DNA from: Rosellinia necatrix
Lineage: Eukaryota; Ascomycota; Sordariomycetes; Xylariales; Xylariaceae
Direction of reading: 5' to 3'
Assembly (NCBI GenBank): GCA_021209875.1
Contig: JAGYVD010000011.1
Coordinates: 434,001 to 498,000 of the forward strand
Length of the DNA stretch: 64,000 nt
Positions 1-25,577 of this stretch are shown here, piece after piece (within the stretch, counting starts at the first letter, position 1; every line of letters starts with the position of its first letter). Both the position numbers and the translations under genes were made by a program. The notes below the pieces were generated by a model. It was not told the DNA's origin. It did not search any database and saw nothing but the letters and a program-made list of their open reading frames with translations.

Positions 1-1831
1 ACCACGCCGCCTTGATCACGCGCCTGTGACATCCTGCACGTTCCTAGCCCGTGCCAAGTCGTGTTTACATTTCCACGCAGCCAGCTTTCTATTGCCTCAT
101 CGTCTTTGCTCGTATACTGGATCTTGGGGGCGGAGCCAAGAACAGGGCCATCGGTACAAGCGGCCGCCGAGCTTGCTGGGAACTCTGGGTGTGTGGTGGG
201 AAGCTCTCCTCTGAATACTCCCATCCGTCGTGCCATCATGCGTTGTTTCTTGTACATCCAAACATGCTTTTTGAGATCTATATCGTTCGGATCGGAGAGG
301 AACCCCGTGATGAACTCCGGGGTGGCCGTCGAATCCGCGCCTGTGATATGAATCTCTCCCCGAGAAATCGGATAGCCGCTAAAGGTCGCAATACAGAAGT
401 ATTGACCCTCGGGCACGCTCGTCGGGTCCCCAGGGAACCTGATTCGCTGTCAGTAAGTCTCGATTGAGCCTCTGGCATTTGTCGTTCTTCTACTTACCCG
501 CCCGCCAAGCTCACTAGCATCAAAGGCCGATCACTTTGCTGTTGATACTTCTCGCTCCATTCTCTCTCGAATGCTGGCCCAAGACCGGCAACATCTGCCT
601 CATCTGGGCGTAACTTACAGTATGCGTCAATTGAATTCCACGCTAAAATTGGCTCTTTGCGATCGACCAGATCTTGAAGCGTAAGGCGGCCGCTCGATAT
701 AGCGTCGATGGTCTCATCCGGTTCGAGGCATGACTTATAGGAATAGGTCATCATGTGATGATCTTGGTAATGGGAGCCGACATCCGGGATATCAGACACA
801 ATAGGAACGTTAGCAGACCGCAATATCCCGGGGTTGCCGATTCCCGAGTATTCAAGAAGTAAAGGGCTCCCGAGGGCACCACAAGATATGATAACCATCT
901 TTTTGGCCTTCACAGACATCCGCGTAACATGTTGGTCGCCAAAGCCAGTTTGACGTGCCTGATACTCGACCCCGACCGCTCTCTTGCCATCAAATATGAC
1001 ACGCTTTACTGGCGACTCGACCAGCACGTGTAGATTAGGATGACGCCCATCATGGAGCCTCGGGAACAAGTATTGATGAGCTGTGTCTTGGCGTCGACCT
1101 TCGAGGTCCACGTACCGCATTGCACGCTGCACACCAATAGTGGTGTCCATAGTTTGCAGGTCCTGGCACTCCGACCATCCCGTGGCGCTGACTGCGGCTA
1201 TAAAATCGTCTTCGAGACGAGAAGAGGAGAGTCGGCTTCCGGAGACGTGGATCGGGCCATCTCGTCCGTGACGGGCCTCGCTATTGGGGCCGTGATACGT
1301 TTCCAGCTAATGGGAGAGGGACTATTCAGCTGGCTTCCAATTGACCACGAACACTGCATTACGTACTTTATTCATGTACCTCAACATCTCGTCCGCGTCC
1401 CACCCCGGAATGGACCAGGCCTCGAAATCCGAACGCTGCGGCCGCGTGTATACCATCAGATTCACTGATGAGCCGCCCCCCAGTACGCCGCCTGTCGGGA
1501 TGACGAGCTCGCGCCCGGCGAGGTCCGGCGATGCCTTAGCTTTGTAGTAGAGGTTGTGTCTGTTTCCGGGCGCAAGGTTGCTCATGAGCATGGCCGGATG
1601 GGCGAGCTCGGGGATGTCGTGATTTGAGACACCCCCCTCAATCAATAAGATGGACAGGCGAGGGTCCGCATCGGAAAGCCTAGCTGCGATGATACAGCCG
1701 GCACTCCCGCCTTTGCCGCCACGAGTCAGCATTCATGGGTACGAGGCGCGACTTGGTGGGATCTGGATACCTCCCGCAATGATTACGTCCACTTCCCGAA
1801 TCTCTGCGGGCAAGGTAGTGTATATCGCCAT
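1..1831 (-). CDS. GMC alcohol oxidase, four exons, 3' end outside window
   Basis: FAD-dependent oxidase of the glucose-methanol-choline family, closest in pattern to fungal alcohol (methanol) oxidases, which oxidise short primary alcohols to aldehydes with release of H2O2, usually in peroxisomes. I read the exons as complement(1771-1831, 1367-1710, 498-1306, 1-438); the introns are 60, 60 and 59 bp and all frames join. The first splice creates the FAD-binding GGGSAG motif at about residue 20. GMC motifs follow: VLGGGSS in exon 2 and GALGSPLLLEYSGIG in exon 3. The catalytic-His motif NTTWHGLGTC lies near residue 534 (positions about 38-67). About 550 codons are visible against the usual 650-670, so the C-terminus, including any peroxisomal signal, lies to the left of the window. 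The start at 1831 gives the typical N-terminus MAIYTTLPAEI. No stops or frameshifts interrupt the joined reading, so the gene looks functional. Family certain; exact substrate inferred. Confidence 0.93.
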
Positions 1832-3718: not shown

Positions 3719-6700
3719 CTAGGAAAGGATCGGTAACTTATCCCGAATAGCCTCGATCACCGTGACTTCCTTTTCTTGAACATACTTCCTCTCTTTTCTC
3801 TCTGTCCCAACGCTCACAGTATCGTTGATTTTAGACAGCCCGTTGGACCCGAACAAGATCCAAGGAGCAACGTAGAGCAAGTCCCCTTGTTTTTCAGACA
3901 TGTGTCTTTCGAATATCTCTCGTATCCGAGCCGTCTTTTTCAAGTAAGTATACTGCGCTGGACTCAGGGTGCTCTGCGCGTTCTCGGAATGGTAGTGCAA
4001 CCAGTCCAGAAAGGTAGCGGAGATGGCCGCAAGAATAGGGGTCGCGTACGACGTCCCTGAGCGACACTCTGCCTTGCCCTGCCAGCTTAGTCGAACCCCT
4101 AGTCCTAGGGTACCATAGTTCGCTTTTGCCTCGGTCGCAGGGTTGATCGAGTCCAAGCCTCCCAATCCATCGAGCGCGTGGACACAGATGACGCGCTCGT
4201 CTCTTGCCGGGTAGGTTCGTGGGTCGTTGAGCCCGTAGTTGGATGCCGAGGCAAAAACAATGGCCTTGTCTTTGCAGTCTATGATGGCAGTTTCGAGAGC
4301 GGAGATATGCTCGCGTGACCCAAACGACATGCTAATGATGTCCACCTCTTCCTCAAGGGCCCAATGGAAGGCGTCGACAACCTTGGTAGTATCGCTGAAC
4401 GCCATGCTTTTAGACACCTTGGCAATGTAGAGATCTACATCTGGCGCGCATTTTAGTAGAAGGTAAGCTAGCCATGTCCCGTGACCGACTTCGTCCCGTA
4501 CAGCGTCGTCTTCACCCGGCCAATACTTTTTGATCGGGTTGGTTTCTCGAGAGCCATGAAATCCTTGGTTCTCTCTTGATTCGATGACCTCGGAGAGGGC
4601 CTCGTCCAGCCACTTGTCCCCCTCGTCGATACCTGTGTCCAGCAACGCAATCCTCAGCCTTCGACGACCCCCGCGGCGGTCGGTCATCTTTGGCGCGATG
4701 AAGTGTTTCCTAAAAGTAGAGAAGTTATCGAAGAATGTTTTTGCGCGGGCTTCAGCTAAGCTGGACATGAAATCAGCGACTCGTGCACCTGCATTCGCCC
4801 AAGCGCGGAAACATACGCATTAACTGTTGGTGGAACGAGGTCATCAAAACAAAAGATACTGTCTGATATGGAGCCTCTTCTGTTAGATGAGATAGACGAT
4901 GGCCACAGCACAGCGTTTGTCGGCGGCCCGGGAATATCGAACGGCCCATGTCTATGTTTCTTGATGGCAGGGTAAGACGTTCGGTAGTTGATTTCGAGTG
5001 GTCGAACGACACTTTGGAATATTCTCCTCCGCAGGTCATCGAATGTAAGCCTTGAACTCGAAGCGACCTTGGATCGGGGTTGGGCGGGAGTGTTGAGCTT
5101 AGTGGGCGGCTTGGTGAGTTCAATGCATCCTCTGATGGCCTCCGCGTATTCGGCATTACCTCGTGTCTCGATATCTTTCGCCACGTCCAACAACTGGGTC
5201 TCAAACGATTCGTCTTGTTGCGGCTGGAAGAGCGAACCCGTCTCGATTTCGACTAGGAGCTGGGCGAAGGATTGCAAATAGACCCCATACTTATCTTTGG
5301 TGAGTTTTAATGTCGTAACAGGCTTCCTCTGAACAAGGGACGTGGCAATATACGGAAAGTGTATGTTGAATATCTGGGCGCCCGTCCTGGTCCGCTTGTG
5401 GAGGAAGTGTATTAATTGGGCGGTCCACCGCTGGTGCATCCACGAACTGTATAACAGGTGAAGCAGGCAGAGCCCGATGGAGAAGGACAGCACGGCCTTA
5501 TCTTCCTTTTTGAACAGGCCATGTTCCCCATGACCAAGGACACCGCGCTCAAGCAGCTCGGCAAGTGATATAGTTGGATACGCGTCGGGGAACGGGGAGT
5601 AGGACGTGCGTGGGTTTACAGGAGTCAAAAGCAACGTCGGGGTAAACAAGATGCTTTTGACTTCCGGAGAGTGGCTGCTAATGGCAAAATCGCAGAGATA
5701 AAATTGTTCGTCATCCTTCATTACTCTAGCACACTATATCAGCGCTACACTCGCGATATTGGATTTAAGAGAGAGCCAGCCTAACCGTGATGGAACCGCC
5801 TACCTTGGAACGGACATAAATTCTCCTTCCCGCCATTCTTCGGACGGGAGAAGCTGCGGACATTTGGATATGAAAACAGAAAATCTCACATAATCATTTG
5901 CCTCTCGACGGTTAAGTCCGCGACCATCTAGCTGAAGCCTTACAAGATGGCCGTCTTCGCGTGCGTTCCGACTGAGCAGATAGAAGAGTTGTGAGGAAGT
6001 ATCCCAGGGCCGACGGTAGTCCCAATGGCACATGGTCTCGTTAATGTGAGTGTCAACTTGTCCAGGCGGGCCGGCGGTCGAATTCGCGTTCAAGAAGCTT
6101 TTATAGAGCCACCGAGTTAGCTGCGTTATTTCATCAACCTGTTCATGAGTGTGGCCGGTTCGGATAAACTCCTGGCACAACCGAGATGCATTTAATTCTT
6201 TTCGCTGTTGGAAAATGATCCCCAACGCGTCAAGTTTGGGATACCGGACCTCTGTGCTATGTTCATCCTCGGAATTATTGACCCGTGGTAATGGAGAAGG
6301 CGGATTAGGATTAGCACCTCGCATTGTCGTAGGGAAGGACTTGTAAGGCGAAAAGTAGGAAAGAACGGAAGCAGAGAGGCCAGATACGGTTGAAAGAATA
6401 GACCCATAGGTTGCGTTGGTTGCGGTGTCCTGGAGCGCATCGTCATCGCTGTCACCATTATCCAAGACATCCTCATCGACCAGTTCTTCAAGCGCATCCA
6501 GCAAGCTGGATAGGCTTGTTTTGCATGATGCGATATGATCCCGTGGTAGTATGCCAGACGGCCTCATCTTTTCTATTTTGCCCAAATAGGAACCGAGATC
6601 TTCGAGTTTCTTTTTGAAGGGAACATTGTGTTTGTCGAGGGTGTTATTGACCTGATCAGGATCACTTGTGCACAGATGCCTATTCTGGCTGATCAGTGTC

Positions 6701-6807
6701 CACGTCCCCGGAATGCCCAAGGCAAAGACGGGAGCGACGTCGACGAAGACACGCCACTCGGGAACCTCCCGGTCTAGAATCTGGGGCATTACTTCATCAT
6801 CGTCCAT
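3719..6807 (-). CDS. DUF7580-subtilisin (peptidase S8) protein, 984 aa
   Basis: Exons complement(5804-6807, 4817-5725, 3719-4760); introns of 78 and 56 bp, the second with GTATGT, a CTGAT branch site and CAG. All phases agree and give 984 aa. The N-terminal and middle part (roughly residues 230-560) has the pattern of the fungal DUF7580 region: LVRLQL, then FYLCDF, a helical SIGLCLLHLLYSSW segment, and a late NAEYAEAIRGCIEL helix. The C-terminal 345 residues are a subtilisin-like serine protease with a complete triad: Asp679 (LLDTGID), His731 (VGHGTW), Ser875 (SGTSYATP), plus the oxyanion Asn812 (ASASN). There is no signal peptide, so it is likely cytosolic. The gene is divergent from the kinase-HET gene, with about 600 bp between starts. 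HET-Q2 of Podospora, a subtilisin-like protease that activates a gasdermin, is the best functional model. The role as gasdermin activator is inferred from context; the protease call is firm. Confidence 0.9.
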
Positions 6808-7406
6808 TGCTCTTTAAACTTCGCGTGTTCCGAAGGGAAATGGGCGATATCTAGCTGAGATCGAGCCGAGTGACAAGGCTTTGGTGTGTCTCAAGGTGGC
6901 GACACGCAACCATGGCAGATTGGCTCACTATCCGCCGAGGGTGGTGTCAAGCGGGGGTGAGCGACCTTGTCGGAATGGTGGCGCCGACTACCCTCCTAGT
7001 GGCATGCTGGAAACATCCTTACCAAGCTTAGGCTGCGGTCAACTCAGGTAGACTTCCCGAGAGAGCCATCAGCAGAGCTAGAGCTAAAGCTAGCGATCTG
7101 AGCGACCATAATGATTTCACTTCCCAACGATAGAACGAACGCTGCGCAAAGGACGCAAACTGTCAGAGGAGAGAAGAAGAGAGGTAATCGGGGCACATCG
7201 TACAAGCCCTGGGGCTCGGTACAAGTACCTATTGCGTTGGCTGGACCGCCTGACCATCGGATTGGTGGTTATTGGGCGGCGCAGGCCAGGGGTGTTCAGC
7301 TAATTACAGAATTGATGAATTACCGCATGCATGACTACCCCGCCCGACCCTTCAACACCGGCCTGGGCATCCGCGAATGTGGCACTGACTCACAGTGACT
7401 ATTGCA
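6808..7406. promoter_or_regulatory. shared divergent promoter region of protease and kinase-HET genes
   Basis: 599 bp between the two start codons (ATG at 6807 on minus, ATG at 7407 on plus). A 95-codon open frame at 7111-7398 ends just before the kinase-HET start and is at most an upstream ORF. A small internal repeat, agagctagagctaaagctag, lies at 7074-7093. Head-to-head placement suggests joint expression of the two genes; no known operator was recognised. Confidence 0.5.
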
Positions 7407-10400
7407 ATGGGCTTCCAGGAGGACGAGAACGAAGAGGAGAGCGGCTTGCTGCATGGAACGGAGCGCTGTAATAGTCTTTTTGAGGCCGTCCTGGCCAAAT
7501 TTCCTGGCCGCCAAGGAGATGCTTACCAGGCTGCACTGGATTCTCGCCAGCGCTTTCAAGCCTGGATACCGAGTCTCCTTGAATGCCTCCCGGGCATGGT
7601 TGGTGATGGAGGCGTGTTTATCCGGCAAGTCGTCAAATCGGTTGAGGCCAACCTACATTCGAGTAAGTTGACATCTTATGATAGTAAGTAGGGCATTGGC
7701 CAACTGACTTGTTGCTTTGAAGTTCTTGAGATAGAGAGCTGCAAGACAAAGCAAGGCGCGGAGCAGAGAGCAATGGGAGAGCTCGCTAAAGATGTGCTGA
7801 GCGTCATCTCGAACTCAATCAATCAACTCGAGAACTATACTACCGTAATATCGCGGAAGCTTGCGGAGGAAGATATTTATGTCCAACACCAGGCAGTTCC
7901 TGGCACCTATGACTCCCTGATTATACGGGGGCTCATCCTCAGCCGATTTCCCAAGCTGAGTGAATCGATTCTACGGCTGTTAGAGAGATCCGTAGTGGCA
8001 AGAAGAGAAATTTTATTATCTCTCAGAAATGGAAGATTAGCACAGAGCTGGGAATCCGAGCCAGATGAGGATCAAGAGTCATCTGACACTGGGTCCCTGT
8101 CCTCAGCGCAACCACTGTTCTGGAACGACCGGCGATATCCAGACCCCCCCGAGAGCGATGGCGATGCAAAAACAAAACGTTGTAGTTGGTGTCACGATGA
8201 TCTCGAGGTTTCTAAGCTGCAAGATATCGTATGGTGGCGGTAAGAGCTGCATTAAGTCCCATTAGGCACTGCCACCAAGATCACACGTCTAACGAGGCTA
8301 AGGAAACATTTTTTACGAGATCTGCAGCCCTATGTCTGCCTTGCAGGTTGTGAGCACCCGCGAATGCTTTTCTCGAGATTCCATGAATGGAAAGACCACA
8401 TGGACTTCTTCCATAACGTGGATTGGATTGAGAAGTTGCAAGTGCTTGATGAATGGCATTGCGATATCACCTCCTGCCCCTCCGAGGAGAAAAGATTTGG
8501 TACCTCACATGAACTTCAATCCCATCTCCACCTCGTGCACGGAAGGGAAGTATCTCTGGCGCGGATCGCCTTGATGCCGAAAAAAAGTGTTGAACCGCCA
8601 ACTGGCGAACTTGCTAGCTGTCCATTGTGCCATCAGCATGTTATGACGGAGGGTTTTGTTGGAAGTATCATTACCGATGGCATAAATGAGCAATCTGTGT
8701 ACTCGAAAACTCCTCAAGACCTAGGAGGTTCGGTCGCGGATGAATCCACGGACATGCCAATGCCAATTCCCCTTGAAGACCCATCCTCTCAAGAACTAGA
8801 AACAAGAGAGACTCTTATTAGACATATCGCAAACGATATTAAAGGCTTAGCTTTCTTATCTCTCGAAGGTATCGAGGCTGAGACTCTTCGTGGCGGGCCT
8901 TCTGACTCTTTAGAGCACCAAAAAAACCCGGATAGAATCTTGCGGGGGGACAACGACGGCGGGATTTCATTATCAGTCCGTACTTCAGGCTCACTTAAAT
9001 CTGCCCTCGGAACACCAAGCGGCGGGCGAGTGTCTATTGGAGCAGAGAACTCGATAGAGGTAAAAGAATCCTCGATATGGGATAATACAGACTATGTTTA
9101 CTGGTCTGGATTTCCTAGTAAGTCGCCTCACTCATGATTGTTTTCAAAGGAGTGTTGCATTGTTAAAAAGAAAAGCTCTAGACTTCAGATTGCCGACTCG
9201 GAGGCATCGGGGAAGCGGACACGACACAGACATTCCCGCGGCTGTCGGAGACTCTCAGGTGACGAGGTCGTTCCTAGCGGATGGTCAATTAAAAAAACAA
9301 GATGAAATCTCAGTGTCTACAGTTGCCACATCGTCCCACTTGAGAGATGAAATAAATGACGCCCTTGTCGAGAGCGCATTTGATAGCGGCCGACGATTTT
9401 TCCCTGAAGGTAATCTTGATCGGCTAGTGACATCTGAAAACGTTTGGGGAGCGTTGACATATAGGGGCTTTGGCAGTGAAAAGATTCAAGCCCTTGCTGA
9501 TTTCGTTCTCACCGCGGCGAAAAAGCTCTTTGCCATCATAGTATACACTGATATGATCGACGTTGGTGACGCCCTTGAGAGTTTCCGAAAGTCAGGCGTC
9601 ACAGACCGCCACCTACCCATCCCACAAGAGCTCATCGATTGCTGGGGGATAAAAGATCAGTCGATAGGGGAAATCTGCCACCACGACGCAGCGTTAAATA
9701 TGTTTCATGGGAAGCCATGGCGCCGTACCGCTATCTCAGCATTCTACCATTCACAGTGGCACTTTCTTGCGCCATTATTCACCCCCGACAATAAGGACAT
9801 GGCATTGGATGTCAGAGCGATTCTGCCATTGGTCCGTGTTGGCCGAGACGCCCGAATGGGGTTCTTTAGTGAGGTGTATGAAGTTGATCTGCATCGTGAC
9901 CATCACCGTGGGATAGTGCCATCTGAGGACGGACATGAGCTTCGCGTTGCGCTGAAAGAGCTGCGAATGGACTCCCGAGATGATGAAATCCGGCGTGTAT
10001 TTGAGCGTGAGACAAGATCCCTGAAAGAGCTTCGTCATTTCCGAAACAAACACATGATCACTGCTATCGCCTCGATTATCCGAGGCGAAAGGCGATATTT
10101 CATATTCCCCTGGGCGGATGGAGAAGACTTGCGGGCATTCTGGATGACAAAGGAGTTCTGGCCCCTGACACCCCATTTAATCCGGGAAACCGTGCAACAA
10201 CTCAGCGGTCTAGCCAATGCCCTGTACATACTGCATCAGGGAGGATGGAGGCACGGAGATGTGAAACCTGAGAATATCCTGATATTCAAAAATCAGACTA
10301 CCCTGGGGACCCTCAAGCTGGGGGATCTAGGGCTTGCCAAGACACACCACGCCAATACAGCACTTCGACGAGCCCCAACCGAGACAAGGGTTGGGACGAT

Positions 10401-13086
10401 GCGCTACGAGCCACCAGAGACCGTCACCTCCATTCATCAGCCGCGATCACGAAGATATGATATATGGTCGATGGGATGTGTCATAATGGAATTCGTCATC
10501 TGGTTGCTATATGGGCCAACTGGGCTGAACGAGTTTAGTCGGGCTCTCTCCAATGACAACACTATCGGAGAGGCATTCTATTCAACGAGACAGGGCGATG
10601 GCCGCGAATTACAGGCCGAAGTGCACCCCATAGTCAGGTTCTGGCTCGATGAGATTTCCCAAAATTCAGATTGGCCACGCGACTCGGTAATTGCCGACCT
10701 CGTGAGACTCGTAGCGACCAAACTGCTTGTGGTTCGGACATCACTTGCGCGACTCTCATCGCCCATAGTGGAACAATTAAGCCTAGGGCCATCGATCGTC
10801 CCTTCGGTAACGATAGGAATGGATTTGGAACCGGGCATATCCAATGTTCGAGCGGATGCCAAGATCTTACAAGAGCAATTAGAACTAATCCTGGGGAAAT
10901 GTTTGGCGGACCCCGAATATCTGTTTCCCGGGGCAGCGAGGGCAGCTCTCTATCGCCGCGTTATGCCAGGCCATAATACTCCTCGTGCTGGGAATTTAGC
11001 CCATCGCCATACAGATGACTTGAAATCAAATGCTCTTCAAGTCGAAGCTTACCCCAAGCGGTTGTCTCTACTGTCTCTAGCGCGCGAGGCAGAAGAGTAC
11101 AATGACAGGGAAGAAAGTAACCTTCAGGTAAGTTATCATTATCTGTATGCATTGAAATGAGTCGAATAGTTGATTCCATAAAAATAGGATCACTGGGAAT
11201 ATCTCACAGACAACAATTTCGCTAGTCAATTCTTCCAGTCTTTTGGTGGCGACATCCCGGCCACCCCTTGGTCAAGTGTAGACCAAATCTGCGATTATTG
11301 CGCAGATATCGACTTCTGCGTGCCGAAATTCTCCGTCGTCTACCCGACAAAGTATCTTGAAGAAAGTGCCATCTGCTGTCATCTGTGCTCCCTGTTGCAT
11401 AGCGCCCTTCCTCGTAGCGGTCTAAACCAGCTAGACTCTCCTACGATCCAGCTCAAACGATACGACTCTCTGATAAAACTCCAAACAGGTGGCCCTCCCA
11501 TTCTATCCATTGTTGCGGACTCAGGAAACTTGATAGCTTCTCCTACAGCACCTCTCATCCCAGCTGATATTCAAATCGGATTACCAAACTTACATAACTT
11601 TAGTAGCACAGCTTCTCGTCACATCCTCAGGCAGTGGTTAGCAAGTTGCGACGCCGGACACCAGTGCATCTTTAGAAACAAGTCTAATCAGTACTTTCCA
11701 ACCCGGATTCTACTTATCGAGAATAACGATGCCCCCACAGTGCGCCTGATTGAAACTGTAGGGATGGTGGATAAGTCTCAGCCATATATTACGCTCTCGT
11801 ACGTCTGGGGCTCATACAGTCCCGGCTGGAGGCTTGAAAACAGTAATTATGCACGATTCCAGCACGGGATGCCAGCTAGCGAGCTGCCGCCTTCGTTTCG
11901 GGATGCTGCTCTAGTTGCAATACAGATTGGCATACCGTATCTCTGGATTGACGCTCTTTGCGTTGTCCACGACAGCCGGTTCGACACAGAAGCAGATATC
12001 ATGGATAGAGACCTGGCTTTCCAGGGGTCGCACTGCACCATCTCGCTGAGCTCCACCGTCAGCATCAGTGATGGATTCCTGAAGCCACGAAGACACAGGC
12101 GGGCGGTGAAAATGCGAAGAGAAAACGGCGGCGTCTATTATGTCTGCGAACTGATCGATGACTTTAACAGAGATGTAGAGGAGTCGCCTCTCAGCTCGAG
12201 GGGATGGGCATTTCAGGAGCGCGTTCTATCGCGGCGAACGATATTCTTCACGGATACCCAGACATATTGGCAATGTGGCAACGACATCCGCTGCGAGACT
12301 CTGACGAAATTGAGAAAGTAAGTCTACAAGCCTGTGATCACGATGCTTTATCGACTCTAACTTGGCCGTGCTAGCTGGAGGTCGAGCATTCTGGGCGACC
12401 CTGATTTTCCTATGCTGTCCTTGGAAACTTTGCGGCCCGTCCAGACTTACCAGCAATTTTACGAGCGTTACTCGCTACTTAGGTTCAGTTTCGGCGTAGA
12501 CAGATTTCGTGCCATCCAGCCCCTGGAGAAACGAATTCTGCAAGCCCTACGATCTGAGGGTGGCTATGGAGTCGTCGCGCGTTTCCTCGGGCGCAGCCTC
12601 CTCTGGCGCCGGGGGCCTGGACAGACCCTGGAGCGAATAAAGTTCCCTGAAGACAAGCATATTCCAAGCTGGTCTTGGCAAGCATATATTGGTGGCATAA
12701 CCTATCTGAACATGCCGCCTGATACTATCGCCTGGAACCGGATTCATTGTTGGTTTGGAAATAGGGACTTTGATGGCCGGAGCGAATCCATCGGTGAACT
12801 TGAAGCTGAAGCGTGGGATTTCGATTTCCAAGCTCTGTCCGCTAACATATCCAACAATTTGACGGTGGTTTGGGACCGGGGTGAGCATGGCAGGAGGGGA
12901 GATCTCAAATGCATTACCGTCGGAAGTAGCAAGGTCCGCTCTGCTGAGATTGGGCCGCCTCGTGCGAATTACCTCCTCATTGTCGCACCTGGTGGGAATT
13001 ACAAAAGATTCGAGCGGCTCGGAGTCGGATATATGGACGGAGAGGAGGACATATCAAAGGATAAGGTAGTGATTCGAGTTCGGTAG
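7407..13086 (+). CDS. zinc-finger / protein kinase / HET-domain fusion, about 1,793 aa
   Basis: Six exons: 7407-7662, 7723-8239, 8303-9117, 9176-11127, 11188-12317, 12375-13086; introns 57-63 bp. The fourth exon may start at 9182 (two residues fewer). Every join keeps frame. Domains in order: a helical N-terminus (1-230); a fungal C2H2-like module (about 238-340; CSWCHD, DLQPYVCLAGC, RFHEWKDHM, then HLHLVHG, SCPLC); a protein kinase (about 747-1120) with Lys789 in VALKEL, HGDVKPENIL (catalytic Asp891), DLGLAK (Asp913) and YEPPE; then a Cys-rich linker and a HET domain (about 1379-1520; YITLSYVWG, LWIDALCV, GWAFQERVL) with the usual long C-terminal region (PSWSW). The kinase has HGD for HRD and DLG for DFG but keeps the key Lys and both Asp residues, so it may be active. 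HET domains trigger cell death in heterokaryon incompatibility. The gene lies between the protease and gasdermin-like genes. Family calls firm; the pathway role is inferred. Confidence 0.92.
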
Positions 13087-14047
13087 AAGAGGAGGAGAGA
13101 AAGAAGTGGCAGTCAGCCAGATATCATCACTAGGCAGCTAGGGGCAGATCCTAGACGGGTTTAATGAAGAATAAATGCGGCTCAAAATTATGAACGTTAT
13201 TGTTGGCCTAGTTATTTTGGCATTGTCCGAGATAAACACAAAAAGAGTGACCTGCTTCGTAGTAAAAGGACGTGGTTGTTGGGTAACTATAATGTGGTAA
13301 ACCCTTTCCTTTCAACCGATGGGGTTCTACACCTAACTACTACGTAGGCTAGCACTCACATGGATGAGTCCGACCGGACCCCTTAGAGGGCCCGTTCGCG
13401 GTGCGTTTGTCACGTACAGGTCTTGCTAAAGGGACTGGGAGAATAGAAGGTGGCCCGACCTCCCCCGGAGGGGCACTGCACTGACTGGCCGTTGTTTAGA
13501 GGCTTGCGCTCCTTTCTAATATACGCGTTCTACCAATCTGTACAGTGCCGCGTGAAAGTGTAGAAACTTAGTTTAACAGTAAGTCTTGTTAAACAGGCCA
13601 TATTTTCGGTCTGACGTGGTTTAGCTGAAGCAGACACCTTGCTGATGGGAACTATAGTGTAGTTGGGCCACCATCATGCTGGTTGCCGGCGCCGACAAAT
13701 ACGCCGCGTGGCTGCAGGCAGAGTTATCCCAGTTGGCTTGGACAGCTGAGAGAGGGGCGTCTAGTGGATTTGAGCCTTCAATGTGGTTGACCGAATAAAG
13801 ACCGTTGTGCGGGGTATTCCTTGGGGCTGGACTATTTAGCCGGTGTATGTGTGGCATATAGCGGTTATGGCGGCGTCACATAAGCGATGTCATCGATTAG
13901 CTGCCGTGTTTTCCTATATAGCCAAAATCTTCCTCCTACGGCAAAGGAATTGCTTCCCCTATTCGCGAGCTACACCCGGAGTGGCCCGCTCGTTGCCTGT
14001 CCCCCGTCTGCATTTCACCCAAACTGTGCGAGTCGATCCCATTAGCC
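13087..14047. other. intergenic region between kinase-HET and gasdermin-like genes
   Basis: 3' flank of the kinase-HET gene and 5' flank of the gasdermin-like gene. It holds no convincing coding frame. A short inverted repeat (GTTTAACA ... TGTTAAAC, around 13570-13593) could form a hairpin. The 78-codon minus frame at 13621-13857 has no family motif. Confidence 0.4.
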
Positions 14048-14923
14048 ATGTTCAAAACCTATGTCGTGGCCCCAAACTTTTCCATCCCCCCGGCTCCCGA
14101 AGTGCAGGGCTCTGCTGCAATCACTCCACAGGGCCAGCTGCAGCTTGGGGATATACTCAATAGGCCCTTTGGAGCCAAGCTGATTGCTATCAACCGCTAT
14201 GACCGCACTCCGATTGACGGTGACTATCTCGAAGATGTGGATATGAAAGGGGAAGTCGAACAAAATTCCCAAAATCTTTTTAGTGGACGACTCGGTGTCT
14301 GGGCTAGCCTGCTGGCTAATCTAGGCATCGGACTAGATGTCGACCTTAATATCCATAGTCTGAGCAATTCTGCGGATGTCATCAAGATCAAATCGCTAGA
14401 AACTCACTCGTTTGACGTTAGGGATGATTACGTTAAAAAGGTGCTCATGTCACAATCGGTAGCCGACTACATTAGCGAGTTCAAGTCGTCGGCCAAAGGG
14501 GTCAAAGAGGTCCCCCTATACATGGTGTCTGGCTTGAAGGTTGCCAAGGGTGCTTCGTCTAAGTTCACCGAGTTGTCAAAGGCGGGCGCTAATCTTGGCG
14601 CATCCGGATCTACAGGCAACGCAGACGCCAAGCTACTTGAGGTGCTCTGGAAACGGTACCGACGAGTCTCGTTCGAAACATCGACCGACTTCGTCCTGGC
14701 CTTCCAGCTGACACACATCAGGTACAACATAGCGACGGAAAAGACGGCGTGGGACGTGTCGCTTGAAAAGGTGACGTTGGCAGATGGAACCGCGATGCCG
14801 CCTGAAATCTTTGTCAACTATGCGGGAATGAATCAGGATTTTTCAGGGGCGAGAAAGCCGTATCAAGAAATATTCCATAGCGGGGATGATACCGAGCTTC
14901 TCTTGATCCCCGATTTGGAGTAG
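14048..14923 (+). CDS. gasdermin-like pore-forming cell-death protein (RCD-1/HET-Q1 type), 291 aa
   Basis: Single exon, 291 aa. The pattern fits the fungal gasdermin-like family. There is an N-terminal LGDILNRPFG segment followed by a TPI turn (30-55) and an amphipathic strand GIGLDVDLNIHSL (93-105). The central LETHSFDVRDDYV (118-129) leads to VPLYMVSGLKVAKGAS (155-170). After a Gly/Ala-rich loop comes FETSTDFVLAFQLTHIRY (209-226). There is no signal peptide or plain membrane helix, as expected for a soluble protein that inserts after activation. In Podospora HET-Q1 a C-terminal fragment of about 5 kDa holds the protein inactive until a subtilisin-like protease removes it; residues about 245-291 here could be that tail. 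The gene lies 0.96 kb downstream of the kinase-HET gene on the same strand, with a subtilisin gene nearby. It could instead be an unrelated fungal hypothetical family; this call rests on pattern recognition without a search. Confidence 0.62.
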   Translation: MFKTYVVAPNFSIPPAPEVQGSAAITPQGQLQLGDILNRPFGAKLIAINRYDRTPIDGDYLEDVDMKGEVEQNSQNLFSGRLGVWASLLANLGIGLDVDLNIHSLSNSADVIKIKSLETHSFDVRDDYVKKVLMSQSVADYISEFKSSAKGVKEVPLYMVSGLKVAKGASSKFTELSKAGANLGASGSTGNADAKLLEVLWKRYRRVSFETSTDFVLAFQLTHIRYNIATEKTAWDVSLEKVTLADGTAMPPEIFVNYAGMNQDFSGARKPYQEIFHSGDDTELLLIPDLE

Positions 14924-15975: not shown

Positions 15976-16019
15976 CTTTACTTGGTCAGTCGCTAGCTAC
16001 TCGTTCTTTTTACACCTTT

Positions 16020-19000
16020 CCTTCTATTTATTATCCGTGCGCAAACTACTGTTAATAGCGTTGCTAGCACGCTACCTAAATCTTTAACAATGCTAAAAAT
16101 TAACGTAATTTTTATAAAATATTAAAAGCCTGATTAATAATATAAAACTATATTTATATATAAAGCTGCGTTTATTATATAAAATTTAATAACGCTGTTA
16201 TATTTAATTATAACATTTAAAACTAACTATATAAAAGCTTTAATTATTAATACGCTATTATAAGCTAATTTATTACTACTTAAAAAAATTAAAATTTAAG
16301 CGATTTATTTGTTTTTAAAGCTAAAAATAGCTAGAAAAAACATTTATAACTAAAAAATATTGCTTTAAAACTTATTAAATAAATAATACGTTAAAATTAA
16401 TTAAAAAAATAAAATTTAATAAAAAGTTATTATAACGCTAGTAATTATTTTTAATAATTTTATTTGCTTTTTTAAAAAAAATGTTTAAGCTAGCTATAAA
16501 TAAATAATAAAAAACTATATTAAAATATTAAAGCAGCATTTAAACGTTTTAATATATATATAGTTTAAAAAAAACTTTACAGCTTTTTTTAAGCTTGCTA
16601 ATATATAAGCAAAAATAAAAACATTTAAACAACTAATATTTATTATAACTACGTTTATATATATAAACGCAGCAAAATAAAAAGCTAGATTAAATTTTAA
16701 ACCTGCTTTAAAATTAAACTAATTAATTAAAATAAATTAATAGTTTATCTGCAGCGTTAATATAGCGCTAAACTTTTAAAAGCTTAAAAAAAACATATAT
16801 GTTTTTATACAGCTTAATAATAAAACAGCTAAACTCTGCTAGTCGATAGCTTTTATAATTAAAAAAACATTATTTTAAAATTTTTAACTATTTATAAAAG
16901 TTATTAAAAACGTTTAACTTATAAAAATAAACTAAATAATTAAAGCTATAAATCTTATAATAAAAAACAAGCTTTTTAAAAAACTAAATATTAAAATTAT
17001 TAAAAATATATTTAACGCTTATATAATAAAGCTGCTTAAAAAATAAATAGTTTATATAATCTTTTATATTTTTATATTAATTATTAATTATTTTATTAAT
17101 ATATTTATAAATATTATTTTAAAAATAATTACAGCTAAAATTAAAATATAAATAAAATATATTTTAATTAACATTTATATAGCTAAAAAAAAAATTAATT
17201 TTTAAACAAGCGAAATAATATAAGTAGTCGCGTTTAAAAAGCTTATAAAAAATTTTTATTTGTTTTTAACTAATAAGCTGCTTCGTAGAAAAAAAAAAAA
17301 AATATATTATTTAATATAACTTAAAATATTAAAAATTTTATACAACTAGATTTTATATTAAAAAACTATTTTATAAAAACTGCAGGGTTTATTTTAATAT
17401 TTATAAGCTAATAAATAACAGCAAATATATTTTATTTTTAAAATGCGCCACTTACTGCAGCTTTTATTTATTTAGCTATAAAAACTATTTTTATAAACCG
17501 CATAAAATAAATAAAAAAATTATTTTATTATTTTAAACAAAAATTAAAACTATTTAAAAAATAAAATATAAAAATATAATAATAAAAATTTTTTACTATT
17601 TATAACTATTATAAAAAAAAACTGTTATAATTAAACGTTTTAAATAATAAAATAATAATAACAAGCGCTAGGCTTTTTTTATATTTTTAAAGCAAATATA
17701 AAAAAAATCTAATATTAAAACTATTAGTTTATTAATTATAATATTATTAAACAGAACAACTAGTAATAATAAAAATAACAGAAAAATAAATATAAAAAAA
17801 AACCAAAAACAAAATTATTGCTATAGCCTTTTTAATACTTTTATTAATTATTGTTATACTTTTTTTTTAAATACTAGCTTTAGCTGTTTATATATCGGTT
17901 AAATATAATATAACTAAACTTATTAGCATTTTAAAAAAACTTTCTAAAATTATAAAAAAAAAAACCCTTAATAAACTTTATAAGCTATTTTATAAAACTA
18001 ATAATAACTTAAACTTATAATTAAATAATATTAGCAAAAAAATCTAGCTTAAACTTTTAAAACAATTAAAATAATAGTATAAAACGTTAAACATAAAATA
18101 AATAATTATTTAATTCTGCTTTAAAAATACTAAAATAAAAAAATCGACGTAATAATAATTATTAAATTATAAATAAACAAAAAACGCAAAAAAAAAACAT
18201 AAACTTATTAAAAATATAAAAACTATAGACTAATAAATATTTAAAATATAAAAAAATAAAATCGACTTAAAATAATAATATATATTAAAATATAAAAAAA
18301 ATTTATAGCAGCGCAAAAAGCCCCGGTATATTATAAAAATCTAATATAGTTTAACATAAACAGCTATAAACTATTTACGTACTATAAAACATTTAATATA
18401 AATATAATAATAAACTATATTATAATATTTAAACTATTTAAAAACTATTTAATAATAAACAATTTAAATATAAAACATTTAAACTAAAAACTTAAAACTA
18501 TAACTTTATATAATAGTTAATATATTTTAAAATAATTAGCTAAAACAAGAATATATTATATAAAAAAGCTAGGCAAAACAACCTATAAAGTAGGACACGT
18601 TTTAAATTTTTTTTTTTTAAATATTTTTTTTATTAATCGCTAAATAGCTAAAAAGTTAAAAATATTTTTAAATTATAAGCCGCTGCTAATTATACTATTA
18701 TAAAAAAAACCCTCTGCTTTTATAAAAAAAGCATTAAAAGTTTTTATTAAAAAAAAAAAGCTGTTTAAGCTTATAAATCTAATAAACATAAAAACATATA
18801 TACTATTAAATATTAAAAAAACAAAAATATTAAAAATAATAAAAGCTGTTGCAAAATTATTTATAATTTTAATAATAAATAATATATAAACTATTAAAAT
18901 ATAAAAAAAATTAAAAAGCAAAAGTATATTATAATAATTAATTAAATGTTCTAAAGCTTATAATAATGTTAAAGCTTTTAAAAGCATAAAAATTATTAAA

Positions 19001-21905
19001 AAAAAATAAACGTTAGTTTTTTATAATAATTAAATATATTAAAACAATATATTAATAAAATAAAATTAATAACGCTAAAAGCAACAAAAAACTACTAAAA
19101 ATAATTAATTAATATAAACAAAAAAAAATAATAAAAGCATCTTTTTTATAATTAAAAACAAAGTTATAATAAATATTAAAAAAAAACTAAATATTTTATT
19201 AAAAATATTTTAAAACGATTTAACGCTAAAAACAACTTATTTATTTTTAAACTTACTGTTTTTTTAAATTTTATAAACTTTTTAAAGCTTACTGCTTTTT
19301 TAAAACTTATAAAGCTTTTTAAATTAAATATAACTAACTGCAAGTTATTATAAAATATAACAGTTATTATAAAAAAAGCTTATAAATATATAATTAAAAT
19401 ATTTTTAATATTATTAAAAAAAAACCTAATTATAATTAAATATTTAACAGCAGTTTAGCCGGCTATAAATAAATATTATAAACAGCTTATAAAAAAATAT
19501 CTAAAGCATAATATATTTTTAAAAATTTAAAAAAAACTAACGTAGTTATGCTATTAAAACTAAGCAAAACAGACTTTATTTTATATAAGTTTTAAAAACC
19601 GATAGCACTTTATTTTGTTTAAAAAAAAACTTAAAAAACTTATAACGTATAAAATAATATAAACCGCTTTAAAAGCCAGCTTTATAAGCTTTTAGCACGC
19701 TAAAACAAGGCTTAAAAAGTCTGCTGTTGATTTAATAGTTAGCTTAGTCTATAATATTAAACTAGCTTTAATTAATAAAATAATCGCAATATTAATTATT
19801 ATAAATATATAACAAGTATTTAATATATTATTAAAAAATAAACTAATAAATAAAATAATAAAATAAAGCTAGCTTAAATTAATAATCTAAATTACTAAAA
19901 GCTTTTTAATAAAATAAACAATTACTATATATTTTAAAAATATAAAAATAAACTTTATAAAAGTTATCTGCAGCACTTTATAAAGCTTTTTAGCTTTGCT
20001 AATATTTTATATGCTTTATTTATATAAACTAATAAAAAAATACCCCAGCTAATAAAGCTATATTAATAATATCGTAGTGTTTATATTAAAAAAACTTTAA
20101 AATAAAACATATATAAAATTCAAAAACAAATTAACAAAATTTTTAAATATAAACGTATAAACAAAATTATATTTATATTTAAAAAAATAAAAGCAATTTA
20201 TTTTATATAAAGCCAGACTAAATCTAATTTTATTATTAACTTAAAAAAACCTTAAAAATAACGCTAATTTTAATTACCGACTTTATTAACTTATAAAAAA
20301 TTTTAACGCTATATTAGCTAAAAATCTTTTTAAATAAACGTTTAAAGTTCTAGTGTTATATAAAAAAAAAAACTGCAAAAAATATAAAAATAAATAATTA
20401 TATTAAAGCTATTTTAGCCGTATTATAAAGCTTACTAGCAGCAGGCCTATATAAAATAATTAAAACTATATTAATATTAATATTTTTTTACAAAAGCAAA
20501 ATCTAATATAAAAAACATATTAAACCTGTAAACAAAATAGCTTCTAGCTGCTAAAAAAATATTAATATTAAACTAAAAAAACATATATAAACTGTTTAAT
20601 AAACACTAGTCCGCGTAGCACGCGATATATTATTTATTTAAAAAACATTTTTTAAAAACAGACTATTTATTACTAACAGCATTTTAATTATAAATATTAT
20701 TTTAAAACAAATTAAAAATAAACAAGCTTTTAAAATTAAAATAGTTTATAAAACACACTTATTAACGCTTTATATAGCTTTAAAATATATATAATAAAAT
20801 AAAAAAACTAAACAGATCTAAAAAACTTATATAAACTTATAAATAATAGCAAGCCTATTATTAAATATTAAACATATAATGTTTTATATATTAAAATTTT
20901 TTAATAAATTAAAAATAAACTTTATAAATAACGTTGAAAAAATAAAGCAGCAGAAATATTTAAAAAATAGTTTATTAATAAATTAATATTTAATATAACT
21001 GTTTTTTTAAACGGCTTAAAAACTTTTAATAAACTAAAATATAAATATATTATTTATAAAAAGCTAGAAATAATTGCTAAAAAACACGCTAAACTTGATT
21101 TTTATAAAATAGTTTTTAACGCTAAAACATTAAAAGCATTTTAAAAAATTTAAAAAGCTGCGAAACTTTTTTTTACAAGCTATAAAATTATATTATATAT
21201 AAATAATACCGCAGCTATATAAAACGCTTAAAAAAACGCGCTTATAACTTCATAGTAAGTTTTTATATAAATATATAAAATTATAAGCAAAACAAATATT
21301 AAACTATAATAAAGCTTAAAGCACTGCAGCATTAAAAGCAATAAACATATAAACAAATTAATTAAAAAAAGCGTAAAAAAAAGACTTAAAACCTTTAAAT
21401 TAATATTTACAGCAGCTTAACTTAAAATAATAACTAAAAATTAAATAAAAAAAATAATTAATAAATAAATATTAAATAAAAACATAAATATTTAAAAGCA
21501 TTTATTCTGCTTAAAAAATATTTAGCTTATTATTTAAATATTATATCTGCTTATAAAAACTATAATTAATATTATAATAAGTTTAATTATTATAAAGCAG
21601 AAATTTACTGCTTTTATATGTTTTATTTTTAAAAAAAACAAAAAAAAACGCTAAAGCATATAGTTTATTATAAAACAGTAATTATAAGCTAAAAAAACTA
21701 GCTTAAACTATTTAAATTAGCTTTTAAATAAAATAGATCTAAATAAAACAAAAAAAGCTGGCTTATAAAATTATATAACTTAAACTTAAAGTTTTTTTAT
21801 AATAAATATAAGTACTAGCAATAGTTAATTTAAAACTTTATAACGTTTTAAAAGTTTTATTAAACAACTGGATATTTTAGCAAGATCTGTTTTTTTTTTT
21901 AATTT
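16020..21905 (+). mobile_element. RIP-degraded non-LTR retrotransposon (LINE, Tad-like)
   Basis: Very A+T-rich, with stops in all frames. Protein ghosts remain on the plus strand. At about 19985-20095 a reverse transcriptase palm reads SFLALLIFYMLYLY then SYINNIV; the two Asn replace the catalytic Asp pair, as G-to-A change would do. At about 21180-21390 an RNase H-like part reads LYINNTAAI and later HCSIKSNKHINKL. This order (RT, then RNase H) and the lack of LTRs fit a Tad-clade LINE. The 3' end is near 21905. Outer limits are approximate. It cannot encode any working protein. Confidence 0.7.
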
Positions 21906-21958
21906 AAAAAAAAATAATGGGGCTTATATAAGCGCTCCCTCTACACGCGCGTATCAAT

Positions 21959-23422
21959 AACGTAATAATAAACTGATATAAAAACTAATACTTCTTTTAA
22001 AACAGGCCAGTTTAGCCTGTATTAATATAAACTTTTGTTTTATATATATATATAATTATATATTTAGTTTTTATAACAGCTTATTTAAAACTTAACTTTA
22101 AACTGATATATATTTATGTTATATTTAGTTTATAATCACTTATTTTCAAACATTTATATATTATGTATTTAATTTAAAAAATAATATATATATATTTTTT
22201 TTATAAATAAAGCAACTTTATTAAAGCTTTAATTTTAAAACAAGTTTTAATTAAACTAATATTAAATAAAACCACAAAAAATAAAAACTGATATAATAGA
22301 TTAATAATTAACGCAGCTTTTATAATAGTTTAGCCCAACTTTTTATAACTAAGCAAAATTATATATAATAAATTTAATTTATAAAAGCTTAATAAAAAAA
22401 CCGCTTTAAGCTTATTAAAATTATTAATTTAACTTTTAATAAATAAAAACTATTTTTAAATATTATTATATAAAATAAAAATAAATAAAAAACGTTTTGG
22501 AATAAATATAACGATAAATATTATAAACAGCTTATTATATTTAATGATTTATATAATAAACTTTTTTAACTAAAATATTATTTTAATATATATATATAAT
22601 TTATTACTATTTTTTTGTTTTATATATAACGCGTTTTTAAAAACTAATACATTTTAGATGTTATAAAACTATTTATTATATTTAAAAGTTAATGATAATA
22701 TCTATTTAAATTATAGTTTTAAATAAAGCGCTGCGTAATATATATATAATATAAATATAAATAAAAACAATGGAAAACTTTTAAGCTGTTAAATATTAAA
22801 TATAAACACATGTTTGTATAAAACGTTTTTAATTAAAATATTAAAAACTAATAAATATTTTATATTTAATATAAGGTTAAACTTTTTTATATTATAAAAA
22901 CTAATAAAAAATTAAACCTTAGCTATATTTGCTGCGCTAGCTTAAATAACTAATAAAAAACTCATCTTTAGTTATTTTTATTGTCTTGTTTTAAAAGCTT
23001 ATTTAATATTAAATTTATAATAAATTTATTTTTATTAATAAATAAATAAATATATTTAATTTAAACATTAAATTTAATATAAATTTATTTTTAATTTTAT
23101 TAAAATTTAGCAGCAGTATATTTAATTAATTAAATAATAAATTTATAGCAAATTTGCTTTAAACTATTACATAAAAAAATATATATATTATTATATATTA
23201 AATTTATATCAAGTTTATAATAAAACATAAAATAATCAGACTATTTAAAAATATTTTATATTATATGTTTTTTATTTAACGTTTAAACTATCGCATATTA
23301 AATTTAAATTTAATTTATAGCTGATTTATTTATTATTAATAAGTTTTAGCATTAGAACATTAAAAAAAAAACTTTTATTAGGCAAATTTATATTTTTTTG
23401 TTATAATTTTTAATATTATTCA

Positions 23423-23455
<33 letters not shown>

Positions 23456-24917
23456 AAGTTTTTCCTGCAGCAGCTTTTTTAACTTATTTTTATTTTAAAC
23501 TTTAATTTTAAACTTTATTTATAGTTTTATATAATAAAGCTTTATAATTAATATTAAATTTATTATAAATTTACAGCAGATTTTTATTTTTAGTGTTTTA
23601 AAACGTTTTATGAATATTTAGTGCGATATAATTATAATAAGCGGCCGCTTAAGCTTATAAAAATAAGTTTTATTATTTCTTCATTTTTATATTATTTATA
23701 TTAATTCAGCAGTAAATTAATATTAAATTTATTATTTATTAGTTTTTATAATTTATATTAAAATATTTATTGAAACAGTTTTTTTTTAAACTTTTATATA
23801 ATATATATATATAAAAATTTATATATTAATATTATTTATATAAAACATGTTTATATTTTAAATAAATTTATTTTAAATTTATTTTAAATTATAATTATTA
23901 ATTTTATAATATAAAATATATAATAAATATAATAGATTTAACGTTTAATTATTATACCAAGCTTTTAATTTATAATATATTAGCATTAAATTCAAAAAAA
24001 ATATATTAAAAAACTTCTTTTTATTATATAATTTTAATTACAACAGGCTAAAAAATTAGCAATAAAGTAACGTGTTTTTATTTAATATTAAAAATATTAT
24101 TCTTTTTTAAAAGCTAGGTGTTATTATATTATTAACGTTTTAAATTTAACGCATATTTATATTATATTATTATATTTATTAAAAAAAACATTATAAAAGC
24201 TGAAGAAAAAAAGCTTTTATTTGCGGACTTAGTTATATTTTTTATACTATTTACCTAGTTTTATTTAATTATATTTAATTATATATTTTTAACCTTTTTT
24301 TATTTTATAGATTAATTATATTTTTAACTTTTATTATTTTATTTATGAATAAAATAAATGTTTAAAACATAAGTTCAAAATTTTTTTTAGCTAGCTTTTT
24401 AAACTTAATTATATTTTAAATTTAATATTAAAAAATAAATATATATTTATTACGTTTTTAGTTTTAGTTTTATATTAATAATAACTTATATTAAGCTTAT
24501 ATTTTTTTAAAAATATATTTTATTTATATTATATAATATATTTTATTAATAATCTAAATAATTAAGTTTTATTAAAATTAAAGCTTTATTATTTAATTTT
24601 TTTCTTATAATTTTAATTTTTAACTATCTTAAATTTAAAATAGCTTTAAATTTATTTTATTTCTTATTTAATAATAACAGGCGATTAAAAAAAAATAATG
24701 GTTTTTTTTAATTTATAAATAATATATATAATATAAAGCATTTTTATAGCTATTTTTTTAAGCCCAACTATATATTAAATTTAACGCTAAAAAATAAACA
24801 TATGTTTGCTACACTTTTAGCTGCGGCTTTATATTAAAAACAACCTGTATTAAGCTCACGCTCCCCCCCAGAATACATGCTATTTACACTGCGCGGTGTG
24901 CCCTGTTGGTGATATAG
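21959..24917 (+). repeat. 3-kb repeat, copy 1
   Basis: Matches 54306-57345 in the same orientation over its whole length. Shared marks are the start (aacgtaata ... ataaaaactaata), aaacaggccag, a TTA microsatellite (about 23425-23453), internal near-duplicate segments (about 24390-24510 and 24765-24870) and an unmutated G+C-richer tail with cgctcccccccagaatacat. The ends carry short, imperfect inverted words (TATCA.. and ..TGATA), so a non-autonomous DNA element or large LTR is possible. No coding frame is apparent. Confidence 0.8.
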
Positions 24918-25577
24918 ATGATCTGTTGTTGAGGTACATAACTCCTTGTAGTGTATCTCCCATAGATTAGACGTTAATACTACTTTTACTCTTTATTGTG
25001 TATCTTTTTGCAGAGACCCGCCAGACGGTCACGTGGCTTATGTGCTCCAGCAAAAATGTGTTTCAGCCTGGCCCTGTGTGCCCAATCTCCCCTACGTCGA
25101 TATCGTTTCCCTGTAGATTAGACCTCCTTAATTCTTGCAACGTAGACCCCAATCCGGGAGTAGGTTCGACGTCGTCGGCAAGGAGTCATACCAGCAGTAC
25201 CAACTACCCATCCCATTCAGTCAGCCCGCCTGAGCCGAGGAATATCATCCCTCAGGCATCACCTTCGAGGCCCAACTCGATGGGCTGTTCCCGGTCGACG
25301 ACTCCAAGCACCACGGACTTTTGCAGCATTCCGGCCTCTGTTTAGCAACCCCGGTGATAGCCGGGACGCTGATCATTAATTCTACGCGTCATCTTTAACC
25401 TCGGAAATAACATCAAGGCCAGTAAAGAATCAAGCTACTATATTAGGAAACTGGAGACCTGGGAGGCTTCCGACGCGGACAGGACAACTCGGCGATAATT
25501 AGTTGTTCCCATTGCCTGAGAGCACTACGATGTGTTTTCGGGGCTTTCAACTTCAACTCTGTTGTAGCCGCCCATGA
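24918..25577. other. left part of second gene island, no recognised gene
   Basis: Base composition returns to normal at once after the 3-kb repeat. A 115-codon Ser/Pro-rich frame at 24998-25345 has no family motif and may be a relic. Nothing else is recognised. Confidence 0.4.

Follow-up and report, generated by a model that had tools for sequence, protein, structure and literature searches.

Gene organization of the locus

A 64,000-nucleotide stretch of the Rosellinia necatrix genome (the window; bases 434001-498000 of contig C6, which has 599,870 bases) was analyzed for three neighbouring genes that look like a self-destruct unit in which one gene may encode a sensor, another a protein-cutting enzyme and the third a protein that forms membrane pores. 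The initial annotation had placed a subtilisin gene, a kinase-HET gene and a gasdermin-like gene side by side; the three were present at positions 3719-6807 (minus strand), 7407-13086 (plus strand) and 14048-14923 (plus strand), and no other gene was seen between them among open frames of at least 100 amino acids. The exon structures described here are predictions from sequence. Comparative searches were performed within one R. necatrix genome (49.1 Mb, 12 contigs), in which the best candidates were listed and introns were disregarded, so that the counts given below are lower bounds.

The first gene is predicted to have three exons (6807-5804, 5725-4817 and 4760-3719) separated by introns of 78 and 56 nt that keep the frame, and to encode 984 amino acids. 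Pfam analysis revealed a DUF7580 domain (positions 4984-6018, minus strand, interrupted by intron 1; residues 264-581, E 4.1e-36) and a Peptidase S8 domain (positions 3998-4654, minus strand; E 7.9e-14, 52.1 bits against a cut-off of 21.8). The translation contains the catalytic Asp in LLDTGID, the His in GHGTW and the Ser in SGTSYATP, together with the oxyanion Asn in SASN. The annotation as a DUF7580-subtilisin with a full catalytic triad was therefore confirmed by domain matches and motifs alike.

The second gene is divergently oriented, and its start codon is separated from that of the first by a shared intergenic region of 599 bp (6808-7406). Six exons on the plus strand (7407-7662, 7723-8239, 8303 (or 8297)-9117, 9182-11127, 11188-12317 and 12375-13086) are predicted to encode 1791 amino acids. 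The protein kinase domain (positions 9943-10506; PF00069, E 1.9e-26, 93.5 bits against a cut-off of 31.7), with VALK, HGDVKPEN, DLG and PPE in the translation, looks intact. It is followed by a HET domain (positions 11785-12219; PF06985, E 3.8e-18, 66.6 bits against a cut-off of 22.5). No zinc-finger family in Pfam reached E 1 with this protein; the zinc-finger (ZnF) block at positions 8298-8732 (plus strand), which is common to other partners of DUF7580 genes, is so labelled because its Cys/His columns align with those of its relatives. Two of the relatives gave zinc-finger matches in Pfam, below the cut-offs. As regards the ZnF/kinase/HET fusion that had been annotated, the kinase and HET domains are thus supported by Pfam and the zinc fingers by aligned columns, while the fusion itself is a predicted intron between the ZnF and kinase-HET halves (positions 9118-9181, plus strand; 64 nt, GTAAGT...CTAG) that keeps the frame.

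The third gene (14048-14923) consists of one exon encoding 291 amino acids, for which no Pfam match was obtained. As a single sequence, its best match in the PDB was RCD-1-2 (E 2.5e-4). A profile built from this protein and three paralogs matched RCD-1-2 (2.7e-16), RCD-1-1 (4.1e-15) and the HET-Q1 pore structure (3.5e-6), and bacterial gasdermins appeared at E of about 0.4, below significance. The profile search thus bore out the proposed gasdermin-like identity through homology to RCD-1 and HET-Q1. The nearest relative found in the genome was at C7:5395829 (E 2.6e-8); a scan of viral contigs with the four-gasdermin alignment gave 35 pattern matches, with no relative among them. The match to RCD-1-2 extends as far as residue 226 of the 291; beyond it is a C-terminal tail of about 65 amino acids (positions 14726-14920, plus strand) that may be inhibitory. 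The four other gasdermins found in the genome also extend past the end of the RCD-1-2-matched stretch, and C-terminal tails are accordingly present in all five.

Association of gasdermin genes with S8 proteases

Searches with the window, C7 and C8 gasdermins as queries gave five gasdermin loci, located in the window on C6 and at C7:5395769, C9:1052286, C8:904915 and C4:302213. For each of the five, one of the 25 S8 loci (merged from 31 matches) was no more than 12 kb away, and the gaps between the gasdermin and S8 matches were 9.4, 2.7, 1.1, 1.4 and 0.4 kb, respectively. When loci were placed at random in 20,000 trials, for which the length split between contigs C3 and C12 was guessed and their sum was taken from the genome total, a maximum of three of five was reached, once. 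The clustering of the gasdermin with a protease gene that had been noted for the window, where the two are within about 10 kb, therefore holds for every gasdermin found here and is not a chance association. On C6, C9 and C4, each of which carries a gasdermin at the same place, a DUF7580 match was found no more than 0.8 kb from the S8 match. The two domains are joined in one open frame at C4 and by predicted in-frame introns at C6 and C9 (51 nt at C9).

The remaining two loci have other neighbours. At C8:901665-908153 (L032), a second three-gene cluster comprises a HET protein (1057-amino-acid frame), the gasdermin and an S8 gene without DUF7580; the HET gene (C8:901665-904835) has no kinase match and adjoins the gasdermin/S8 pair. 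At C7:5395757-5400319 (L026, L027), an S8 gene comes after the gasdermin, and ahead of the S8 gene is a frame that appeared patatin-like by eye and had no match in Pfam. HET matches were located near two of the five gasdermins, at 1.8 kb (C6) and 2.4 kb (C8), the other three being judged by eye. With 0.12 expected within 4 kb, this proximity corresponds to a Poisson P of 0.006; the distance was picked post hoc, and the value was not used as support.

Recurrence of the ZnF/DUF7580 head-to-head pair

The union of four queries identified relatives of the ZnF half at 14 sites, eight of which were within 5 kb of one of 12 DUF7580 matches. This count retains a site on C11 that matches the C-terminal zinc ribbon only and a site on C3 with stops. 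All eight paired sites were divergent and arranged head-to-head, and random placement of the ZnF sites, using the same guessed length split for C3 and C12, brought at most two near DUF7580 in 20,000 trials, compared with the eight observed. A ZnF partner was present at each of the three DUF7580-S8/gasdermin loci. In the five pairs in which both first ATGs were readable, the shared intergenic region was 325-599 bp by hand count, assuming the first ATG as start. The N-terminal and zinc-finger regions of four partners, three of which were joined by eye, could be aligned and showed 23-24% identity to the window protein.

The ZnF partner gene on C9 ends without a kinase or HET domain, whereas downstream of the one on C4 (C4:294919-298276; L034) the same strand carries a WD40 frame, either fused or separate, which we take to resemble TUP1. 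The ZnF protein thus seems to vary at its C-terminus, which would fit a sensing end. Two further sites were noted. At C5:2650572-2657623, a head-to-head pair has a HET match about 3 kb past the DUF7580 match, possibly a third kind of output. At C11:2948413-2954005, about 5 kb separates an S8 match from a sequence that matches the C-terminal zinc ribbon of the C9 ZnF protein.

Putative outputs and possible kinase-like character of DUF7580 proteins

Nine intact DUF7580 copies were counted, namely eight above the cut-off without an internal stop and the intron-interrupted copy in the window. Three are associated with S8 and a gasdermin, and six have an N-terminus of the type MSGFEIAGVVLGAIPLL; five of these six S8-less genes are paired with a ZnF gene. 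This MSGFE-type N-terminus resembles that of the HeLo-kinase proteins of fungi. Membership in HeLo is not claimed, as Pfam gave HeLo at E 0.05 in one of the six and PigL_N at E 0.042 in one of the six, both below the cut-off, and HeLo did not occur among the 27 PDB hits obtained up to E 10.

In a search of the PDB with the DUF7580 profile, all 12 hits were kinase folds (E 0.19-0.94); they included MLKL and the Nod-factor receptor NFR5, and most were JAK2 or chains named only tyrosine-protein kinase. The hhalign comparison of DUF7580 with the window kinase scored 24.3 at a probability of 3.4% (0.6% when untrimmed); the HET exon scored 14.5, and none of 30 shuffled kinases exceeded 17.8. These comparisons suggest that DUF7580 is likely a kinase-like domain of degenerate fold.

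Kinase-HET copies elsewhere in the genome

Searches with the kinase exon and the HET exon identified at least four other kinase-HET copies, at C9:3338443-3341915, C2:6078005-6081865, C3:2364827-2367579 and C2:301646-304410. No gasdermin, ZnF or DUF7580 match was found near the four copies counted, nor were kinase-exon matches found at the four other gasdermin loci. The full trio including kinase-HET was found once in this genome. Because the other copies lie away from gasdermin, ZnF and DUF7580 matches, the kinase-HET half does not appear to be a standing member of the module, and that part of the annotation, in which kinase-HET was an added component, was not sustained within this genome; the initial interpretation is supported in part. 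The zinc-finger half of the same gene does recur head-to-head with DUF7580, and the third gene therefore belongs to the module through this half.

Kinase-HET copies together with further related kinase frames look like small local clusters at C9:3334371-3344374, C2:6074287-6081865 and C3:2361418-2370825. A weak S8 match in a long open frame at C9:3349660 (E 1.4e-5), 7.7 kb from the C9 copy, was not confirmed as a subtilisin.

Proposed mechanism and alternative explanations

Taken together, we consider it fairly probable that the locus is a cluster for regulated cell death with three components, of the type known for fungal gasdermins, and that the ZnF/DUF7580 head-to-head pair is its core. We read this core as a sensor-relay pair with interchangeable outputs; in the window, the output would be S8 and gasdermin, with kinase-HET added to the sensor. 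The ZnF protein would act as a sensor or adaptor and the DUF7580 protein as a relay, here carrying the subtilisin. Upon a trigger, the ZnF protein may signal to the DUF7580-S8 protein and unlock the protease, which would then remove the C-terminal tail of the gasdermin, and the cleaved gasdermin would form pores in the plasma membrane. In the window copy, the ZnF protein appears to have gained a HET domain and a kinase, and these may contribute a second killing output and a step of phosphorylation.

A more specific form of this mechanism is a kinase-pseudokinase relay, following the RIPK3-MLKL logic of necroptosis, that is wired to a pyroptosis-type output. The kinase of the ZnF protein would phosphorylate DUF7580, unlock the fused subtilisin and so activate the gasdermin, and ZnF/DUF7580 would be one switch for either a HeLo-type killer or a protease with gasdermin. 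We regard this form as improbable at present. The recurring head-to-head ZnF partner is a named candidate for the upstream component of DUF7580-type proteases and raises the possibility of a single switch common to fungal cell death of the necroptosis-like and the pyroptosis-like types.

Several observations weigh against the three-component cluster with a ZnF/DUF7580 core. A DUF7580 partner is missing at six of the 14 ZnF sites (C5:3139323, C3:2234778, which has stops, C10:1572802, C8:4992045, C10:1822627 and C11:2953919), and a ZnF partner at four of the 12 DUF7580 matches, two of which have several stops, one of which is below the Pfam cut-off and one of which (C5:3083924) is intact. The eight pairs do not represent eight independent origins, because pairs may have spread by duplication, and the comparative basis is one genome. 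Since the C9 ZnF partner has neither a kinase nor a HET domain, the module generally needs neither. The window gasdermin is parted from S8 by the ZnF-kinase-HET gene, unlike at the four other loci. The kinase-likeness of DUF7580 is statistically weak, with no E below 0.09 and an hhalign probability of 3.4% or less, and a single-sequence AlphaFold2 model of the window gasdermin gave a pLDDT of 29 and was not usable.

The most probable alternative is that the window holds, instead of an immune sensor cluster, a locus for allorecognition (heterokaryon incompatibility) whose alleles would differ from strain to strain as in het-Q. HET domains, gasdermins and S8 proteases are each known from incompatibility systems, according to the portions of PMC12881547 and PMC10197012 that were available. 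The available portion of the latter also indicates that only a small share of HET genes function as het loci (in Podospora anserina, 5 of 125), which argues against this alternative, and we consider it rather unlikely.

Somewhat less probable is the insertion of an unrelated kinase-HET gene, with no role in the pathway, into an ordinary pair of protease and gasdermin genes. The spacing is as such an insertion would predict, the other four gasdermins being 0.4-2.7 kb from an S8 match versus 9.4 kb here, and the location of the four other kinase-HET copies and the abundance of HET matches in the genome (129) point in the same direction. However, the zinc-finger half of the supposedly inserted gene itself faces DUF7580, in an arrangement that occurs at eight places including both other DUF7580-S8/gasdermin loci.

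It is also possible that ZnF and kinase-HET are two genes, in which case ZnF alone would be in the module and kinase-HET would be a neighbour. The C9 ZnF gene that ends without either domain is in line with this, as is the presence of an ATG near 9094 in the kinase frame (9064-11160), upstream of the predicted junction. Two separate same-strand genes would, however, share about 44 nt (ZnF stop at 9137) and leave zero intergenic space, whereas the GTAAGT-AG intron preserves the frame, and we hold two genes to be distinctly unlikely. That the cluster is a decayed, non-functional remnant on a small contig (only 600 kb) next to DNA degraded by repeat-induced point mutation (RIP), as the AT-rich sequence from about 16.1 kb on might suggest, is very improbable given three genes that are readable through ordinary introns, with the expected catalytic residues and normal GC content.

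Sequence surrounding the cluster

The AT-rich blocks of the window (16001-25000 and 30001-64000) have a GC content of 0.10-0.34 per kb and raised TA/AT ratios and resemble RIP-degraded repeats; their onset is about 1 kb past the gasdermin gene. Contig C6 is small, its outermost bases are AT-rich at both ends, and one telomere-type hexamer in total was counted in the two terminal 10-kb segments. It is possibly an accessory chromosome or a fragment. On the other side of the cluster, two frames at positions 494-1732 (minus strand) contain what we take to be pieces of a GMC oxidoreductase, and a run of ACT triplets was observed at about 2797-2853.

Comparison with known systems

The protease-gasdermin cluster is already known, and protease fusions to kinase-like domains have been mentioned. 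Fungal gasdermin genes are clustered with protease genes in more than 80% of cases (PMC12881547, available in part, as are the other sources so marked by PMC number here), and both fusions of proteases to predicted kinase-like domains and two- or three-gene gasdermin clusters have been reported (PMC12881547, PMC10197012). The presence of S8 beside all five gasdermins and the DUF7580-S8 fusions described here agree with these reports, as far as their available text goes. The ZnF/DUF7580 head-to-head partner appears to be new, in that we found no description of it in the open literature; Clavé 2022 was known through reviews, and an earlier description is possible. No mention of DUF7580 was found in the open literature, the term "zinc finger" did not occur in the available text of PMC12881547 or PMC10197012, and nothing nearer stood among the papers listed by searches on HET-kinase proteins together with gasdermins, on gasdermin clusters of three genes and on HeLo-like proteins with zinc fingers. 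Zinc fingers and kinases occur in a different arrangement inside NOD-like receptors (NLRs) in the accessible part of PMC12258605, and that of PMC11138114 describes gasdermins without a kinase or zinc finger. What triggers these sensors in fungi is considered a major open question (PMC12881547, in part).

The divergent layout of the pair resembles that of head-to-head sensor/helper NLR pairs, known from plants and, in Sordariales, from 13 of the 225 clusters that consist of two NLRs (PMC12258605, in part). Unlike these, neither the DUF7580-S8 nor the ZnF-kinase-HET protein of the window contains NACHT or NB-ARC in Pfam (E up to 1). The five S8-less DUF7580 partners resemble in plan the fungal HeLo/HELL-(pseudo)kinase proteins (the fungal ones are mentioned in the available part of PMC12881547) and MLKL, having an N-terminal hydrophobic region and a putatively kinase-like DUF7580. 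RCD-1-1/RCD-1-2 of Neurospora belong to the same gasdermin family and give the best PDB match; RCD-1 is not controlled by cleavage (PMC12881547, in part), and the C-terminal tail of the window gasdermin is longer.

The comparison with HET-Q1/HET-Q2 of Podospora anserina, made in the initial annotation, is sound as an analogy, and the gasdermin and protease identities on which it draws hold. In both cases, a gasdermin with a short C-terminal tail accompanies an S8 protease that presumably controls it; F238 is the likely site at which HET-Q2 cuts HET-Q1, which loses about 5 kDa from its C-terminus (PMC12881547, in part). According to the same source, HET-Q1 and HET-Q2 occupy a single locus as idiomorphs, whereas both kinds are present here in one genome, and the window differs further in that its protease carries DUF7580 and a ZnF-kinase-HET gene sits between the two. 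Similarly, the two-gene fGSDM/Q2L protease clusters (Clavé 2022, as presented in the available parts of reviews) place a gasdermin beside a multidomain S8 protease, as in the window, which is distinguished from them by its head-to-head ZnF partner gene.

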